Below are positions 2,664-55,525 of a stretch of 64,000 bases of DNA, piece after piece; the stretch's first letter is position 1, and each line of letters starts with the position of its first letter. This DNA is from Bryobacterales bacterium (GTDB taxonomy: Bacteria > Acidobacteriota > Terriglobia > Bryobacterales > Bryobacteraceae), in the NCBI GenBank assembly GCA_003166865.1, contig PMUP01000030.1:33361-97360 (forward strand), in the 5' to 3' direction. Made by a program: the position numbers and the translations under genes. The notes beneath the pieces were generated by a model. The model saw only the letters and a program-made list of their open reading frames with translations, searched no databases and was not told the DNA's origin.

Positions 2664-4106
2664 CTATACGAGCGCCGTGGCTTCGGCCAGCGGCGTATGC
2701 GCGCGCACGCGCTCCAATTCTTCTTGAAATATACGGCCTAAAATCGTCAGCCCCGAGCGGATTTCCTCCGGCGTCATCCCCGCAAAGCTGATGCGCAGAC
2801 CATTCGGCTGCGGTCGCGACACCGCAAAGTATCTTCCCGGCAAATACGTCACGCCTTCGCGCTCGGCGCGCGGCAACAATTCCGCGGCATCCAGAGCGCC
2901 GGGCAGTTCCACCCACAAGCTCATCCCTCCGCGCGGACGCGTGAATTTCGTGCCGGAAGGGAGATACGCGGCGCAAGCCTCAAGCGCGGCCTCCAATCGC
3001 TCGCGCCCGGCCACCAGCATGCGCTGTCGATGCTGCTCCAAGCGACCCGACTCGGCGAACCGCAGCAGCACCGCCTGCGAGAGCTGATCGGTGTGCAGAT
3101 CGCTCCACTGTTTCGTCTCCGTCAGCCTTTCAATCAGCGGACGCGGCGCGATCACCCATCCCACGCGCAGCCCCGGAAAAGCCACCTTCGAAAAGCTGCG
3201 CAGCAAAATCGTATCACCGGTATCGTCCAGCCGCTTGATCGCGGCGATCGGCTCGCCTTCATAAGCCAGCGCGCCGTAAATGTCGTTCTCGATCACCATC
3301 ACGCCCGCGGCCTGCGTGATTCGAAGCAGGCTCTTGCGCGCGGCCAGAGGCATGGTGGAACCCGTTGGATTCTGAAAATTCGGAGTCACGCAAAGCAGCA
3401 GCGGACGCTCGCGCGCAATGGTGCGCTCGAGGACTTCCAGGTCCATCCCTTGACGGCCCACTGGAACGCCGATCAATCGAGCGCCCGCGCGCTCAAACAC
3501 ACTGCGAGCACCCGGATACACTGGGTCCTCCATCAGCACCGGGGTCCCTTGACCGATGGTGCGTTGCAGCAAGTCGAAAGCTTGCTGGCAGCCGCTGGTG
3601 ATCAGGATGTCGTCCGATTCGCGCGCCACGCCTTCGGCACGCGCTTGTTCCAGCAGATAGCGCCGCAGCGGCGGATAGCCGGACGGAGAGCCGAGCTGGA
3701 GAATAGACGCCGCGTCATCGCTCGCGATCACTTCAGCGCAAGTCTTGCGAAACTCCTCCAGCGGGAACAGCAGCTCGGAAGGACGCGAGCGCGAAAAGCT
3801 GCTGGGGCCCGAGTACGCCGCCGCGCCGTTCCAACTGGCCGCACTGCCGTGCTCGAAATTGGTTCCGCCCGATACGAAGCTTCCCCGCCCTACATGACCG
3901 GTGATCAAGCCCTCGGACTCGAGCAGCGCGTAGGCCGCCGAGACCGTTGTCCTGTTCAGTCCAATCTGGCCAGCCAATTCGCGAGTGGCTGGCAAGCGGC
4001 TACCCCTGGAAACGGCCCCCGACTCAATCAACCCCTTCATCTGAGCGTGGAGCTGACGGAAAAGAGGGGTCTTATCCCGTGGATTCAATGGGGCGATCGG
4101 AAGCAT
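2664..4106 (-). CDS. pdxR: MocR/PdxR-type GntR-family regulator with aminotransferase domain
   Basis: N-terminal wHTH ([17 protein letters not shown]...[30 protein letters not shown]) fused to PLP aminotransferase ([15 protein letters not shown]); adjacent to pdxST. Start could be 4130. Confidence 0.88.
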
Positions 4107-4142
4107 GCCAAACCATCCAAAGCATATCACATTGGTTGGCCG
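3958..4142. repeat. left copy of ~185-bp direct repeat (pdxR 5' end plus upstream DNA)
   Basis: agtccaatctg...acattggttggccg matches 6750-6934 at about 90% by eye. Confidence 0.9.
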
Positions 4143-4367
4143 GCGGGTGCGTCAAGTCTCCGGCGTGGCCATCCACGACCAACCCCCCACCTCCCCGAAA
4201 ACGGGACCTCTGGCTCGGATCGAATACCCCCTGTGGCGGGCCATAGATAACCCATAGCCAAGCCGACGCCTATGTTTCAGCTAGCCTCAGACACGCGCAG
4301 TCTCGATCGCAAGAGCGATCTCCCTGGTGGCACATCGCTTCGGCTGTATACTTCAAACGAGGGCCTC

Positions 4368-5630
4368 ATGCCGAAGCAGCCAAGCACAACCTCGCCTCTC
4401 GATCGACGCCAACGCTTCAGAGCATTCATGAAGCGATTCAACCCAACAGCGTCGGCGAAGGTTGCCATCGGGGAGGGGCTAATCTGCCAGCACGCTGGAC
4501 GTTCTGTATTCAAGAAGCTTGCGGCAGGCGCCGACTTGACCCTCGGTAGCCAGCAACTTCTGGTCGGTGGAATCGGCTCCGGCAAAACCACGGAGCTAAT
4601 GCTCGCCGAGCGAGAGTTGGCTCGCAACGAGAGTATGTCGCCTCTGTATATCGACGTGTCGGCTGAAACCGATTTGAGCACCGTGAATTCAGGCGCACTC
4701 CTGGCGAGCCTAGGAATGCATACCTGGAGGGCAATCGCATCGAAGTTCAATCCTCCCGAAGGGCTGTCTGAGGTTTACACCGCAGTCAGGAACGCGGCCT
4801 TTGGGCATCAAAAGCAAGTTTGGGTGGAAGATTTCCCCGAGCCCGATTTCGACGACTACGATCGGCGCGAAGACTACGACGAGTCAGGACACTGGAAGAC
4901 GATCAACGTGCCCGGGAAGCTCAAGCCGCCTTTTCCGGCATTTCGGAGAGACGTAAAGGACCTGGCGGGGCTGGTGTCGAAGCTAACAGGTTTTCTGAAA
5001 GACCAGGGAACCGAACTCGTTGCCGTGTTTGACGGTCTAGATCGTCTGATAAAGGCTGACCAGTTTTGGTCCGTCGCGGAACAAGACTTCCGTGCAATTA
5101 GGCCGCTTGAGGTCTCGGTATTGGCTGCTGGCCCGCTCTCGATCCTTTACGGCCAAGGTCGACAAGTCAAGGACTATTTTGACGAGGTCCATTACCTGCC
5201 ACCTGCCGTGGCCGATCCGAGAGTATCGTCCTTCCTAATTGACATTCTCCGCGCAAGAGGTGCCGATGAACTGATGCGTTTCGACCTGATGCAGAAACTT
5301 TGTCTGGCATCGGGTGGCGTCCTGCGCGACCTGATCTCGCTCGCCCGGAATGCGGGAGAGAACGCATATCTAGAGGACGCTGATAATATCGAGGCATCCC
5401 ACGTAGACCGGGCAATTGAACAACTCGGTAACAGCTATCTGCTGGGTCTTGGTACGCGCCAAAAGGTGGACCTCAGAAAACTGTTGCGGGGAGATGGTTT
5501 TGCTCCGTCTGATTCAACAAGCATGGAGCTATTGATCACCAGGCGGGTTCTGGAGCAATCCGAGTCTAGATACGAAGTGCATCCCGCATTGGCCACGGTT
5601 CTGTCGCAAACCTCGAATGATCCGGAATGA
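4368..5630 (+). CDS. P-loop (AAA/STAND-like) ATPase
   Basis: Walker A LLVGGIGSGKTTEL, Walker B ELVAVFDGLDRL, C-terminal winged-helix-like segment; GAGG upstream of ATG 4368. Confidence 0.75.
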   Translation: MPKQPSTTSPLDRRQRFRAFMKRFNPTASAKVAIGEGLICQHAGRSVFKKLAAGADLTLGSQQLLVGGIGSGKTTELMLAERELARNESMSPLYIDVSAETDLSTVNSGALLASLGMHTWRAIASKFNPPEGLSEVYTAVRNAAFGHQKQVWVEDFPEPDFDDYDRREDYDESGHWKTINVPGKLKPPFPAFRRDVKDLAGLVSKLTGFLKDQGTELVAVFDGLDRLIKADQFWSVAEQDFRAIRPLEVSVLAAGPLSILYGQGRQVKDYFDEVHYLPPAVADPRVSSFLIDILRARGADELMRFDLMQKLCLASGGVLRDLISLARNAGENAYLEDADNIEASHVDRAIEQLGNSYLLGLGTRQKVDLRKLLRGDGFAPSDSTSMELLITRRVLEQSESRYEVHPALATVLSQTSNDPE

Positions 5631-6217
5631 GCTTCAAGTCGGCTCCCATATTTGAAATAGTTCGGCTGATCGACCTTCAACCGCCGGGCGAGACCGGATT
5701 CTGCATGTTAGTTGACGCGTCCTCCGAGCCACGACTGGTCCGAGACCTCCAAGAAGAGCTGGCCGTTCAGAATGCAGGATCTCTGGGCGTCATAGATGTC
5801 AGGGACGAAACGGTGCCCGCCCTGGTCGAGCAACTACGCAAGATACAAAACGCCGTAGTGCTCATGCACGGCTTCGACGGATGGAACGAGGGCACATTTG
5901 CTTCATTGGACGTCAATCGAAGTAGGCTCGAAACCGGCAGTTTTCTCGTGTTCAGCGTCGACTTGGAGACAGCCGGCCGGTTTCTTGACAGCGCACCTAA
6001 CATACGTAGCTTCTTGGGATCGAACATCTTTGTGGCCGCACCCGATCCATCAGCGATGGGCCCCGAAGAGATCGCTGATCGTCTGGCTCAGCTAAGAAGG
6101 TACTACGACCTAAGCGACGCAGAGGTAATTCAACGAGCTGCAAATAGGGATCTTCCTTCTGAGCCACACTTCATAGAATGGCTGATCCTCTTGGGGAGAA
6201 GCGAGCTTGCCCGTTAG
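5627..6217 (+). CDS. hypothetical protein, possible degenerate NTPase-like partner
   Basis: ATGA overlap with the upstream ATPase; contains VVLMHGFD and a FLVFSVDLETAGRFL...NIFVA segment but no Walker A. Confidence 0.7.
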   Translation: MSFKSAPIFEIVRLIDLQPPGETGFCMLVDASSEPRLVRDLQEELAVQNAGSLGVIDVRDETVPALVEQLRKIQNAVVLMHGFDGWNEGTFASLDVNRSRLETGSFLVFSVDLETAGRFLDSAPNIRSFLGSNIFVAAPDPSAMGPEEIADRLAQLRRYYDLSDAEVIQRAANRDLPSEPHFIEWLILLGRSELAR

Positions 6218-6749
6218 GCCTTGGAATCGGGTAGAAGCGGCCAAAGCCTTAGAGGCAAGAACCGAAGCAGACCTAGCCAACATCAGCCTCCCCCCACCGC
6301 ATGAGTACTTCAGGGATATTCGCATTTACCGTCAGCGAGCCACCGACGGCGGGCGTACCAGAAACGGTGTGCACGTCCTGTCACGGCACAGTCTCGGAAA
6401 CGGCGACACCCAGATTAACGCTGGTCCCACGATTTTCCGCGACCCGTGCGAGAACTGCATCCAGTTCCGTTCAGGCGCACAACTCGCGTTCGGAGTCACG
6501 CTACGTTTCGACGGCGCACAAAGCACTCTGCTTGCGTACCGGTTTTATCTCTCGCTTCTTCCAGCTAGTGGTCTTCGATTCGTTCGGATCGACCTCAATG
6601 CCCCAAAGGAAACTTACGATCCACTACATATGCCCCGGTGCCATATGCATCCCGGATTCGAGGGAATTCATATGCCTTTCCCCGTGATGACGCCCATCGA
6701 AGTTCTGGACCGCATCGTCCATGTTATCGAACCGCATTTCACCCCGTAA
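6207..6749 (+). CDS. hypothetical protein (180 aa), unknown family
   Basis: TTG start overlaps the upstream gene by 11 nt; His/Cys-containing C-terminal half (MPRCHMHPGFEGIHMPFPVMTPIEVLDRIVHVI). Confidence 0.6.
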   Translation: MPVRPWNRVEAAKALEARTEADLANISLPPPHEYFRDIRIYRQRATDGGRTRNGVHVLSRHSLGNGDTQINAGPTIFRDPCENCIQFRSGAQLAFGVTLRFDGAQSTLLAYRFYLSLLPASGLRFVRIDLNAPKETYDPLHMPRCHMHPGFEGIHMPFPVMTPIEVLDRIVHVIEPHFTP

Positions 6750-6934
6750 AGTCCAATCTGACCAGCCAATTCGCGAGTGGCTGGCAAGCGGCTGCCTTTG
6801 GACAATTCACCCGACTCAATCAACCCCTTCATTTGAGCATGGAGCTGACGGAAAAGAGGGGTCTTATCCCGCGGATTCAGTGGCGTGATGGGAAGCATGC
6901 CAAACCATCCAAAGCATATCACATTGGGTGGCCG
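6750..6934. repeat. right copy of ~185-bp direct repeat (truncated pdxR 5' end)
   Basis: Minus strand encodes [57 protein letters not shown], then diverges. Confidence 0.9.
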
Positions 6935-6981
6935 CGCGAACTTGCTTGACAATAACTTATTACTTATATAATCTACTAACT

Positions 6982-7329
6982 ATGCAGATGACGTCAAATC
7001 TCGATGCCGCCTTCTCTGCCCTGGCCGACCCCACGCGTCGTGCGATTCTTGCACGCCTTGCCCAAGGAGAAGCCACGGTGATGCAACTCGCGCAGCCGTT
7101 CGAAATGACGCAACCGGCCATCTCGCAACACCTGAAGGTGCTCGAGCAGGCGGGACTCATTGCCCGTCGAGTCGACGGGACCAAGCGCCCTCGCCGCCTG
7201 GTTGAAGCAGGTATCGAAGCCATGGACCAATGGCTCGCGATGGTGCGAACAGCTCTGACGAAAAACTACGACCGGCTGGACCAGGTTCTGGCCGCTATGG
7301 AACCAGAGAAAGGAAAGGAAACGCGATGA
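6982..7329 (+). CDS. ArsR-family transcriptional regulator
   Basis: DAAFSALADPTRRAILARLAQGEATVMQLAQPFEMTQPAISQHLKVLEQAGLI. Confidence 0.9.
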   Translation: MQMTSNLDAAFSALADPTRRAILARLAQGEATVMQLAQPFEMTQPAISQHLKVLEQAGLIARRVDGTKRPRRLVEAGIEAMDQWLAMVRTALTKNYDRLDQVLAAMEPEKGKETR

Positions 7330-7799
7330 GCAAGCTGACGCTTAAGACAGAAGGCGATACACATATTGTGGTGACCAGGCGCTTCGCGGCGCCTCCGGAA
7401 GCTGTGTACCGCGCGCACACCGAGCCGAAATTAATCCAGCAATGGTTGCTCGGTCCCGAGGGATGGACCATGCCCGTCTGCATCAGCGATGCTCAGACGG
7501 GCGGAAAGATCCGCTACGAATGGACGAACGGCAAAGGTGGCGGATTTCATCTGACCGGTGAATATCTGGAACTCGAGCCTTTCGGCAGAATCGTACATGT
7601 GGAACGGATGTACCTGCCCGACCCGACGCCGGATAATCACGTGGAAACGCGTTTCGATGCGGATGGCGCCGGAACGTTGATGACGCTGCGCATGACCCTG
7701 CCCGATGCCCAAACGCGAGCGGCCATGCTGGCTACCGGCATGGAGCTCGGAATGGAAGTGAGCTACGTTCGGCTGGAGAACATTACTTGCAAAACTTAG
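7326..7799 (+). CDS. SRPBCC / AHSA1-family protein
   Basis: VVTRRFAAPPEAVYRAHTEPKLIQQWL...GGKIRYEW; ATGA overlap with arsR-like gene. Confidence 0.88.
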   Translation: MSKLTLKTEGDTHIVVTRRFAAPPEAVYRAHTEPKLIQQWLLGPEGWTMPVCISDAQTGGKIRYEWTNGKGGGFHLTGEYLELEPFGRIVHVERMYLPDPTPDNHVETRFDADGAGTLMTLRMTLPDAQTRAAMLATGMELGMEVSYVRLENITCKT

Positions 7800-10900: not shown

Positions 10901-10979
10901 GCTCTACGTAGTGCATCCACCGGGTAGTGGACACCGATTCCAGGAATTTTCGCGCAACGCAACCCGGAGATAGCCTCGC

Positions 10980-12551
10980 ATGCACACGCACCGTATCGCC
11001 ACGATCACTGCAATTCTGTCGACCGCGTTAATCGCGGCTCCGCAGAGCACGCCTGCTCCCCAGCAACAGACTTTGCCGCGCACGGCCGACGGCAAGCCAG
11101 ACCTCGAAGGCATCTGGCAGGCGTCCAGCACCGCGGCAGCCGATCTTCAGGATCACGCCGCAAGCCTCAACATGCTGGCCGGCCGTTCGGTGATCGGCGG
11201 AAACGAAATCCCATATCAGCCGTGGGCCGCCAAGCAGAAAGCCGAGAATTATCAGAATCGGCAGACGGCCGATCCGCTCTCGAAATGCTTCTTGCCGGGC
11301 GTCCCTCGAATCATGTATCTGGACTTTCCGTTTCAGATTTTCCAGACGCCGAAAGCTATCGCGATGGCCTTTGAATGGGAACTGGACTACCGCCTGATCT
11401 ACACCGACGGCTCTCCTCACCCCACTGACGCCGATTCCTGGATGGGCGATTCACGCGGCCATTGGGACGGCGACACCCTGGTTGTGGACGTCGGCAACAT
11501 CAATGACAAAACCTGGTTCGATATGGCGGGGGACTTTCACAGCGACGCGCTCCACGTGGTGGAGCGATACCGCATGACCGGCCGCGACAGCATTCAGTAC
11601 CAAGCCACCATCGAGGATTCCAAGGTTTTCACTAAGCCTTGGACCATCAACATTGCCTTGCAGCGCCGAACGGATCGGGACAGACTGTTCGAGTACTCCT
11701 GTCAATCCGAAGTCGAAGAGGCGAACGGCGCGTTCACGCGTGAGGAGCGAACCTGGTATCCGGGTAGCGGAACAGCGCCCCCGGTGGCCATGGCCGCCTC
11801 TTCGCATGTGCCCGCCACTCCGCCGCGAGTTGTGGCGAACCTTCGGCGGACGAATGGCGACAAGCCAGACCTGCAGGGCTTCTATGAATCCAAGGCCGAG
11901 GGCGCGAACCAGGCATTGGAAAGACCGGGCGCGCCGGCCGGACAAGCCCTGATCATCGATCCACCGGACGGGAAACTTCCGACGCAGCCCTGGGCCGTGG
12001 ACGAGCACGCCAGCCGGAATTTGAGCGAGCGCGGTTACGACGATCCGACGGCTCACTGTTTCCCCCAGGGCGTCCCTCGATCGATGTACATCCCGCAGGG
12101 AATTGAACTCATTCAAACCTCCGATTACATCGTCTTTCTGTTCGAACGCATGTCCTGGCGCATAATCCCGCTCGTCGATCAGGAGAAAGCGGGGCGTGCC
12201 CACCTGCCGGACAACATTCGATTGTGGGAGGGCGATTCGCTGGGACATTGGGAGGGCGACACGCTGGTTGTCGACACGACCAGCCTCAACGGCAAGACCT
12301 GGCTGGGTGAAGGCGGCGAAATTGTGAGCTACGCCGAACACGTGGTGGAACGATTCACTCCGGCGAGTCCCGACGCTATCAACTATGAGGCGACCATCAC
12401 CGATCCGGTGGTGTACACGCGGCCGTGGACAATGGCCTTTCCAATGAAGCGCGAAAAGTTCCAACTTACCGAGGCGGCGTGTCACGAGGAAGATCGCGAC
12501 CTCCCGCACATGAAGGCCATCAAAGACGCGGCCGCCGGGAAAAAGAAATAG
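10980..12551 (+). CDS. secreted protein with two tandem copies of an acidobacterial-type domain
   Basis: Halves share GKPDLEG/DKPDLQG, C(F)xxGVPR, GDS.GHWxGDTLVVD, KTW, HVVERF/Y, YTRPWT/FTKPWT. Confidence 0.8.
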   Translation: MHTHRIATITAILSTALIAAPQSTPAPQQQTLPRTADGKPDLEGIWQASSTAAADLQDHAASLNMLAGRSVIGGNEIPYQPWAAKQKAENYQNRQTADPLSKCFLPGVPRIMYLDFPFQIFQTPKAIAMAFEWELDYRLIYTDGSPHPTDADSWMGDSRGHWDGDTLVVDVGNINDKTWFDMAGDFHSDALHVVERYRMTGRDSIQYQATIEDSKVFTKPWTINIALQRRTDRDRLFEYSCQSEVEEANGAFTREERTWYPGSGTAPPVAMAASSHVPATPPRVVANLRRTNGDKPDLQGFYESKAEGANQALERPGAPAGQALIIDPPDGKLPTQPWAVDEHASRNLSERGYDDPTAHCFPQGVPRSMYIPQGIELIQTSDYIVFLFERMSWRIIPLVDQEKAGRAHLPDNIRLWEGDSLGHWEGDTLVVDTTSLNGKTWLGEGGEIVSYAEHVVERFTPASPDAINYEATITDPVVYTRPWTMAFPMKREKFQLTEAACHEEDRDLPHMKAIKDAAAGKKK

Positions 12552-53716: not shown

Positions 53717-55525
53717 ATGCTGGAGAAGATGGGTGTTCTATTGAGCGGTTCCGCTCTGAGCAAATCCTTTGGCGCGCGGCCTCTGTTCGAGGATCTTTCG
53801 CTGAGCCTGTCCGATGGCGATCGCACCGGTCTCATCGGCCCCAATGGCAGCGGCAAAACCACCTTGCTCGAAATCCTGGCCGGCAGGGAAGCGCCCGACT
53901 CCGGGACCCGCGCCCTGCGCAAGCAAACCAGGCTCGCGTACGTCCCGCAAGATTCGCTTTTTGCTCCCAGCGACACCGTCGTTTCCGTGCTGACCGCCGC
54001 TCTTGTCGGGTTGCCGTTGGATGCAGAAGAGAAGCTAGGGCGCATCGAGCTCATGCTCGGCCGGGCCGAATTCACGGATCGCACCACGCCCGCCGCAGCG
54101 CTCTCGGGCGGCTGGAAAAAGCGCCTTTCCATCGCGGCCGCGCTGATCGCCGCGCCCGATGTGCTGCTGCTCGACGAACCCACCAATCACCTGGACCTCG
54201 AAGGCATCCTCTGGCTTGAATCGGCCATCCAGGCCGCGGGCGCTTGTTTGGTGGTCACGCACGATCGCTACTTTCTCGAGCGCGTCGCAACCCACATGCT
54301 GGAAATCAACCGGATTTATCCCGGCAGCGCGTTCCAGGTGAAGGGGAACTACAGCGAGTTCCTGGAAAAGCGCGAGGACTTTCTCGAAGCTCAGAAGAAG
54401 CAGACAGACGCCCTTGCCACCAAAGTGCGCCGCGAGATTGAGTGGCTGCGCCGGGGACCGAAAGCTCGCACCGGCAAATCACGCGCGCGTATCGATTCCG
54501 CCGGCCGTCTCATCGATGAGTTCTCCGCCGCCACTCAACGCAGCCGCGGCGGAACTGCCAAGATCGATTTCACCGCGTCCGATCGCAAGACCAAGCGCTT
54601 GATTGAAGCCGAAGCTATCGGAAAAACGCTCGGTGGCCGGCGGCTGTTCCGAAATCTGAGCCTCACCCTCGCGCCCGGCGTGCGCATTGGACTCGTCGGC
54701 GCGAACGGCAGCGGCAAAACCACGCTGCTCAAGCTCCTGGCGGGAGAGCTCTCGCCCGATGAAGGCGAGATCCGTCGCGCCGAGCGCCTGCAAATCGTCA
54801 GCTTCGCGCAGGATCGCGGCGCACACCTGGACCCCGACATCAGCCTACGCCGCGCGCTTTGCCCGGAAGGCGATATGGTGATCTATCGCGACCGTACCGT
54901 CCACGTCGTGGGCTGGGCCAAGCGCTTTCTCTTTTTGGAAGAGCAGCTCGAAATGCCGGTCTCGAAACTCTCGGGCGGCGAGCGCGCCCGCGTCATGATC
55001 GCGCGATTGATGCTGGCGACCGCCGACGTGCTGCTGCTCGACGAACCCACCAACGATCTCGACATTCCCACGCTCGAAGTGCTCGAGGATAGCCTGCTCG
55101 ATTTTCCCGGCGCCATCGTGCTGGTGAGCCATGATCGCTATATGCTCGACCGCGTCTCGACCATCGTTATCGGCCTCGACGGCGGCGAAGGCAACGCTTT
55201 CGCCGACTACTCACAGTGGGAAGCCTTCCGCGGCGAGCAGCTTTCCGAAAAGCCCGCGCCCAAACTTCCCCGCCCTGCCACGCCAACCGAGGAGCCGAAA
55301 AAGAAGCTGTCCTATTTGCATCAGCGCGAATGGGACGGCATGGAAGCGAAGATTCTCGAAGCCGAACACGAGCTCGCCGCCTGCCAGCGCGAGTTACAAG
55401 CCTCGGCGTCCGATCCAGATCGAGTCACCGAAGCCTACGACAAAATGCACGCCGCGCAACGCCGCGTGGAGGACTTGTATGCGCGCTGGGCCGAGCTGGA
55501 GTCCCAGCTAATCCCCAACCCCTAA
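53717..55525 (+). CDS. ABC-F family ATPase (Uup-like)
   Basis: Two ABC cassettes (GPNGSGKTT, GANGSGKTT; two LLLDEPTNxLD) and C-terminal coiled coil. Confidence 0.93.
   Translation: MLEKMGVLLSGSALSKSFGARPLFEDLSLSLSDGDRTGLIGPNGSGKTTLLEILAGREAPDSGTRALRKQTRLAYVPQDSLFAPSDTVVSVLTAALVGLPLDAEEKLGRIELMLGRAEFTDRTTPAAALSGGWKKRLSIAAALIAAPDVLLLDEPTNHLDLEGILWLESAIQAAGACLVVTHDRYFLERVATHMLEINRIYPGSAFQVKGNYSEFLEKREDFLEAQKKQTDALATKVRREIEWLRRGPKARTGKSRARIDSAGRLIDEFSAATQRSRGGTAKIDFTASDRKTKRLIEAEAIGKTLGGRRLFRNLSLTLAPGVRIGLVGANGSGKTTLLKLLAGELSPDEGEIRRAERLQIVSFAQDRGAHLDPDISLRRALCPEGDMVIYRDRTVHVVGWAKRFLFLEEQLEMPVSKLSGGERARVMIARLMLATADVLLLDEPTNDLDIPTLEVLEDSLLDFPGAIVLVSHDRYMLDRVSTIVIGLDGGEGNAFADYSQWEAFRGEQLSEKPAPKLPRPATPTEEPKKKLSYLHQREWDGMEAKILEAEHELAACQRELQASASDPDRVTEAYDKMHAAQRRVEDLYARWAELESQLIPNP

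Follow-up and report, generated by a model that had tools for sequence, protein, structure and literature searches.

A laterally acquired three-gene ATPase cassette beside pdxR that looks like a stripped-down relative of bacterial immune switches

Within the 64,000-nucleotide stretch of Bryobacterales DNA analysed here (the window), three overlapping genes, one of them encoding an ATPase, lie between two copies of the 5' end of pdxR. By its gene content the host reads as Acidobacteriota-like. The initial annotation regarded them as a discrete cargo unit and as a candidate undescribed system of the defence or toxin-antitoxin (TA) type. The locus raises the question of what this trio is, by which route it reached its present position and what its three proteins might do for the host. 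From the comparison with related genomes described below, the three genes form a real system that has no earlier description and moves laterally.

An active and an inactive ATPase followed by a protein of predicted new fold

The features of the locus are collected in Table 1. ORF1 and ORF2 share an ATGA overlap of 4 nt, and ORF2 and ORF3 overlap by 11 nt. The original description of the same-strand arrangement, the overlaps and the two Walker motifs of ORF1 (Walker A, GGIGSGKT; Walker B, VAVFDGLDRL) was confirmed. The reading frame of ORF1 is open upstream to an ATG at 4272; the family alignment favours the start given in the table. The TTG start of ORF3 is found at the same position in the close relatives L030, L031 and L037, and the 11-nt overlap is thus conserved.

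Table 1. Features of the trio and of the flanking pdxR sequences in the window.
Feature	Position	Strand	Remarks
pdxR, intact, PLP-dependent MocR-type regulator	2664-4130	-	first ~58 codons = left repeat copy
Left direct-repeat copy (pdxR 5' end, joined to intact gene)	3958-4142	-	
Leader, left pdxR 5' end to ORF1	4143-4367	no strand	225 nt; belongs to imported unit
ORF1, predicted ATPase	4368-5630	+	420 aa; Walker A/B, sensor-2-like SGGVLRDL, C-terminal VHPAL
ORF2, AAA+-fold protein without P-loop (inactive STAND type)	5627-6217	+	196 aa
ORF3, predicted novel alpha+beta fold, candidate effector	6207-6749	+	180 aa; TTG start
Right, displaced pdxR 5' end copy	6750-6934	-	91% identical to left; starts directly after ORF3 stop

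Both Walker motifs are conserved. Walker A is retained in all 22 ORF1 relatives, as are the sensor-2-like SGGxxRDL and the C-terminal VHP[AS]L (22/22 each). Searches with ORF1 in Pfam, NCBIfam, PADLOC and PDB sequences returned generic P-loop matches only. Single members of the family gave weak but consistent Pfam matches to AAA_22, ORC-CDC6-like, AAA_16, NACHT and nSTAND_NTPase5, the direct matches of the window ORF1 itself falling under the cut-off. On these sequence signatures ORF1 is a predicted active ORC/Cdc6-like STAND/AAA ATPase, which agrees with the earlier assignment to a type of NTPase used in conflict systems. A match of the ORF1 profile at 53717-55525 in the window reads as an ABC-F protein and was dismissed as a P-loop artefact.

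ORF2 gave no significant match in Pfam, NCBIfam, PADLOC or PDB sequences. Its AlphaFold2 model (pLDDT 92.7) has the alpha/beta fold of AAA+/STAND proteins, and Foldseek retrieved clamp-loader subunits (RFC), Hda and ORC with probabilities of 0.96-1.00. None of the 23 ORF2 members contains a Walker A motif (GxxxxGK[ST]), corresponding to the eroded Walker A of inactive STAND (iSTAND) proteins, and the active NTPase with which such proteins are paired is found next to ORF2 in the form of ORF1 with its intact Walker A. All 23 members share an APN motif; after one intervening residue, 22 of them have Arg or Lys (R127 in the window protein), and this APN-x-[R/K] is located just ahead of the predicted last core strand. 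Arginine fingers of AAA+ proteins sit just before the last core strand, and from its position in the model R127 is a candidate arginine finger. ORF2 occurs as a long type of ~190 aa with three C-terminal helices and a short type of ~150 aa that stops before this helical bundle; both types are present in genomes G108 and G129. By its fold, its missing Walker A and its APN-x-[R/K] motif, ORF2 fits the inactive STAND proteins reported for BREX and MoxR-vWA systems (PMC12839542, PMC7159879, PMC8195603).

The fold of ORF3 was likewise predicted with a pLDDT of 92.7. A search with this fold in PDB and BFVD gave nothing at E<=0.001, and the sequence gave nothing significant in Pfam, NCBIfam, PADLOC or PDB. 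Eight residues are invariant among the 21 members aligned (L93, F113, R127, L130, P143, H146, H148 and P157), with H146 and H148 forming an HxH motif. The initial annotation had recognised no family for either ORF2 or ORF3, which still holds for ORF3; ORF2 on the other hand has an AAA+ fold and remote relatives. Neither of the two proved to be a fragment of a housekeeping family, and the trio is absent from PADLOC, Pfam and NCBIfam, in keeping with the earlier view of an undescribed system.

Distribution of the trio and its route into the genome

Among the 257 genomes of the order examined, 23 contain a homologue of ORF1; these belong to 18 of 84 genera, and the four further genomes from the host's own genus have none. 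An independent profile search located ORF3 in 25 of the 257 genomes, 22 of them common to the ORF1 set (Fisher p ~1e-27 for co-occurrence across the 257 genomes). The sole genome with ORF1 only, G216, carries a distant paralogue with other partners, and in the three genomes with ORF3 only the ORF3 matches are partial. In two genomes (G022, G051) ORF1 and ORF3 are found on separate contigs, each at a contig end, in the manner of a single locus that has been split. Wherever the contig extends far enough the order is always ORF1-ORF2-ORF3 on one strand, with genes that overlap or abut in nearly all loci. The protein distance matrices of the three genes are correlated with r values of 0.86-0.92, which no permutation reached, and dN/dS values of 0.12-0.31 for pairs with unsaturated dS denote purifying selection; ORF2 and ORF3 diverge at similar rates. 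The three genes co-occur in about 18 genera and not in one genus only, a restriction that would have spoken against the proposal of the initial annotation.

The distribution is patchy across the order. In an evenly spread sample of 396 genomes of the phylum, ORF3 was found in this genome only, and from the order and phylum samples the trio is known from one bacterial family only. The trio as such was not found on plasmids or phages: tblastn gave no match for ORF1 against plasmids and phages or for ORF3 against plasmids, and the trio was not found in viral contigs. A scan of genome contigs with a generic P-loop pattern, which carries little weight, gave among the matches listed only a cyanobacterial ORF1 remnant.

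The trio has a GC3 of 0.60-0.61. The values for pdxR, pdxS and two genes located 3-6 kb downstream are higher (0.72-0.80), with 0.65 for arsR, which lies nearer. To the right of the displaced pdxR end, at 6928-7799, an ArsR-type regulator and a SRPBCC-family gene are located. These two genes may have been gained separately, since counterparts were not found beside pdxR in relatives.

The two pdxR 5' ends reported to enclose the block were recovered at 3951-4142 and 6743-6934 (192 nt, 90% identity; 91% over the best 185 nt). When 421 kb of sequence was searched for direct repeat pairs of at least 150 bp with at least 85% identity and a gap of 1.5-6 kb, exactly three pairs passed, and all three flank a trio. 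One is the 185-bp, 91% pdxR pair. The second, at locus L034 (G226:C826, 1549-1747 and 4237-4435), consists of the terminal 199 bp at the end of a gene judged by eye to be metallopeptidase-like (88%), and the third, at L045 (G164:C441:46500-63017, 5557-5877 and 10963-11282), of 321 bp of a gene that by eye is of the xanthine-dehydrogenase type (92%). A repeat at L033 with only 67% identity was left out of the count. By simple arithmetic on positions, pairs of these gap sizes placed at random would enclose a trio with a chance of ~1%, 1% and 19%. Where the copies differ, it is mostly at third codon positions (11/17, 18/24 and 16/24; in total 45/65, p ~4e-9), showing that the copies diverged inside working genes. 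Since no further comparable copy of the pdxR 5' end was found in the whole genome, one of the two copies most likely arrived together with the trio from a related strain. A clean empty site was not found: relatives keep the pdxR-pdxS arrangement, and the genes to the right of the trio were not found there. The earlier notion of a discrete, laterally acquired cargo unit is borne out.

Locus L034 gives a hint of the donor. Between its trio and the displaced repeat lies a second copy of 24 bp from the 3' end of an aldehyde dehydrogenase gene (1749-1772 versus 1511-1534), and at L035 (2784-2807) the trio directly abuts an aldehyde dehydrogenase gene, as if the L034 donor had an arrangement of the L035 type. 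In homology-facilitated illegitimate recombination, as described in PMC3240628, joining is homologous on one side and illegitimate on the other. We infer that the trio arrived from relatives in this manner, by one-sided homologous joining combined with illegitimate joining on the other side. Similar repeats would also be expected if a circular intermediate had integrated through one crossover. It is possible that long imperfect repeats of neighbour-gene ends are a general mark of integrase-free cassette transfer.

A constant ATPase core with a variable third part

In other families of this phylum, distant relatives of ORF1 are followed by a gene for a protein of 776 or 1099 aa in which a domain with the motif APDF[FY]SW is joined to NACHT, or by a gene for a protein in which the domain is joined to TPR. 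On plasmids of Nostoc and Acaryochloris the ORF1 relatives precede proteins of >1200 aa that start with the same domain and contain a further P-loop. When the ORF2 profile was compared by hhalign with the N-terminal domains of the non-plasmid neighbour proteins a score of 49.5 was obtained (probability 92%; shuffled maximum 20.7), which rose to 58.4 (95%) with the plasmid members added. This homology implies that the ATPase plus the inactive domain is a constant core, and on sequence comparison the third part behind it varies, being NACHT, TPR, a second NTPase or ORF3.

At L122-L125 and L126-L129, on cyanobacterial plasmids and in further families of the phylum, two-gene pairs were seen in which an ORF1-like ATPase is combined with a large NACHT/TPR/NTPase protein whose N-terminal domain is ORF2-like and inactive; the L127 pair adjoins HicAB and an integrase. 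Such pairs (L122, L123, L124, L054, L055, L126, L127, L129) share with the trio the gene order and, by profile comparison, the homology to ORF2. In contrast to the trio, their inactive domain is fused to a large NLR-like protein and there is no ORF3.

Among described systems, the mobile two-gene operon of Kaur et al. 2021 (PMC8195603) consists of one active and one inactive STAND protein with variable effectors. Like the trio, it is mobile and has an active and a Walker-less STAND/AAA protein side by side, for which a mixed ring with arginine fingers has been proposed. Its inactive STAND is, however, mostly fused to a GT4 or HEPN effector, whereas ORF2 stands alone with 196 aa and no further domain, and is followed by the separate and unrelated ORF3. 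The ATPases of this operon are of the CR-ATPase/Dap3/RNA12-like family. The ternary MoxR-vWA-iSTAND systems (Kaur et al. 2020, PMC7159879) also have three components including an inactive STAND, and plasmid p057_J of Nostoc sp. C057 encodes, immediately behind a MoxR gene, a fusion of an ORF1-like ATPase with a SAV_2336/vWA-type protein (L077, 4219-7143). The ternary systems differ in their MoxR and vWA proteins, which were found neither in the trio nor among its neighbours in the window or in relatives. BREX (PMC12839542) combines an ORC/Cdc6-type ATPase (BrxC) with an inactive STAND partner (BrxB/BrxF), but the trio lacks PglZ, the methyltransferase and the large BrxC, ORF1 having 420 aa against ~1200. 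The BREX core set is absent among the neighbours, and no profile of PADLOC-DB 2.0.0, which covers known anti-phage systems, matches ORF1-3.

Candidate functions of the trio

The chances are about even that the trio works as a minimal conflict switch built from two ATPases, with the third protein kept separate. This reading is favoured because the three genes co-occur, keep their order, are coupled and under selection, and because the ATPase signatures, the homology of ORF2, the patchy distribution, the low GC3 and the lateral arrival all point in its direction. Speaking against it are the mostly metabolic neighbours, the lack of a PADLOC match for ORF1-3, the sub-threshold Pfam matches of the window ORF1 and the failure to find the trio in phages, viral contigs or plasmids. 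ORF1 would bind and hydrolyse ATP, and the catalytically dead ORF2 would dock on it as a sensor or regulator, probably providing an arginine finger through APN-x-[R/K]. In healthy cells this pair, assembled as a mixed ring or dimer, would be kept in the off state. After infection, or in response to some other foreign trigger, ORF1/ORF2 would change state and thereby release or activate ORF3, which as an effector might use its invariant Arg and His-x-His to stop growth or damage the invader. That the proteins form a complex, that they sense a trigger, that ORF3 acts as effector and that the purpose is defence is what we infer; ORF3 probably stands as effector in place of the usual NACHT/TPR part. 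A function in defence is plausible, with about an even chance of being correct. More tentatively, ORF3 may be the founder of an effector enzyme family that is new and has a new fold, switched on by the active/inactive STAND pair, in which case the trio would be a minimal immune switch with a separate effector.

The genomic neighbourhood bears on this question. Strong enrichment in defence islands, for which the initial annotation proposed to look, was not seen, the neighbours across relatives being mostly metabolic genes and only one locus clearly defence-rich (L047, G201:C1:8644500-8661500, in a two-contig genome), with a Mrr_cat endonuclease, an Xre/MbcA antitoxin, a protein that by eye is Fic-like and a 1474-aa DpdF-like helicase. 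A small pair that by eye reads as antitoxin plus PIN-domain toxin was observed next to the trio inside the repeat-bounded block of L045 (10058-10857), and a HNH protein in the neighbourhood of L034. The defence-type neighbours at these three loci make a link to defence suggestive, not strong.

A rather unlikely alternative is a three-gene TA module, in which a constitutively toxic ORF3 would block translation in the manner of TumE, and ORF1 and ORF2 would neutralise it as ATPase chaperone and antitoxin. ORF3 is last in its operon with an overlapping start, as TumE often is (PMC10584680), and the best alignment of its profile with TumE/DUF6516 (PF20126) has a collinear strand pattern with the HxH motifs superposed. 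The score of 14.5 (probability 0.4%) nevertheless lies within the null of shuffled columns (90th percentile 14.6), PF20126 gave no match at E<=1 to any of the aligned ORF3 proteins, and the partners of TumE in TumE-TumA are not ATPases but small and probably DNA-binding proteins (PMC10584680). The only resemblance behind the TA reading of ORF3 is thus not significant, and ORF3 is not classed as TumE.

The trio could also be an accessory regulator outside defence, such as an ATP-dependent machine for assembly or the stress response with a ligand-binding third protein, spread laterally. The metabolic neighbours, the lack of a phage or defence-island signal at most loci and the confinement to one bacterial family speak for this. 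We nevertheless judge it unlikely, as relatives of the ORF1/ORF2 core occur beside or within NACHT, TPR-STAND and MoxR-vWA components, and presence is patchy to the point that the four other genomes of the genus lack it.

It is very unlikely that ORF3 is instead the sensor of the invader and the ORF1/ORF2 pair responds by unfolding or clamping DNA or proteins. ORF3 does hold the position that in the NLR-like relatives is occupied by a variable part including TPR repeats, which usually sense, but its strictly conserved Arg and His residues are closer to an active site than to a fast-evolving sensor, and it diverges at a rate similar to that of ORF2. Finally, a mobility helper with ORF1 as a transposition regulator of the TnsC/TniB type, an idea prompted by the match of most ORF1 members to the Pfam family AAA_22 and by the varied insertion sites, can hardly be correct in view of the missing transposase gene and terminal inverted repeats at the insertion, the lack of a TniB match among ORF1 members and flanking repeats that are host gene ends.

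In its make-up the trio resembles a reduced version of known bacterial immune switches, and it reached this genome from a relative. Other cassettes that have moved without an integrase can be sought through displaced neighbour-gene ends whose differences are concentrated at third codon positions. If the conflict-switch reading is true, three proteins of 420, 196 and 180 residues would provide a tractable minimal model for the cooperation of active and dead STAND ATPases, which is not understood in BREX or in NLR-like systems of bacteria, and a new effector fold would come with ORF3.
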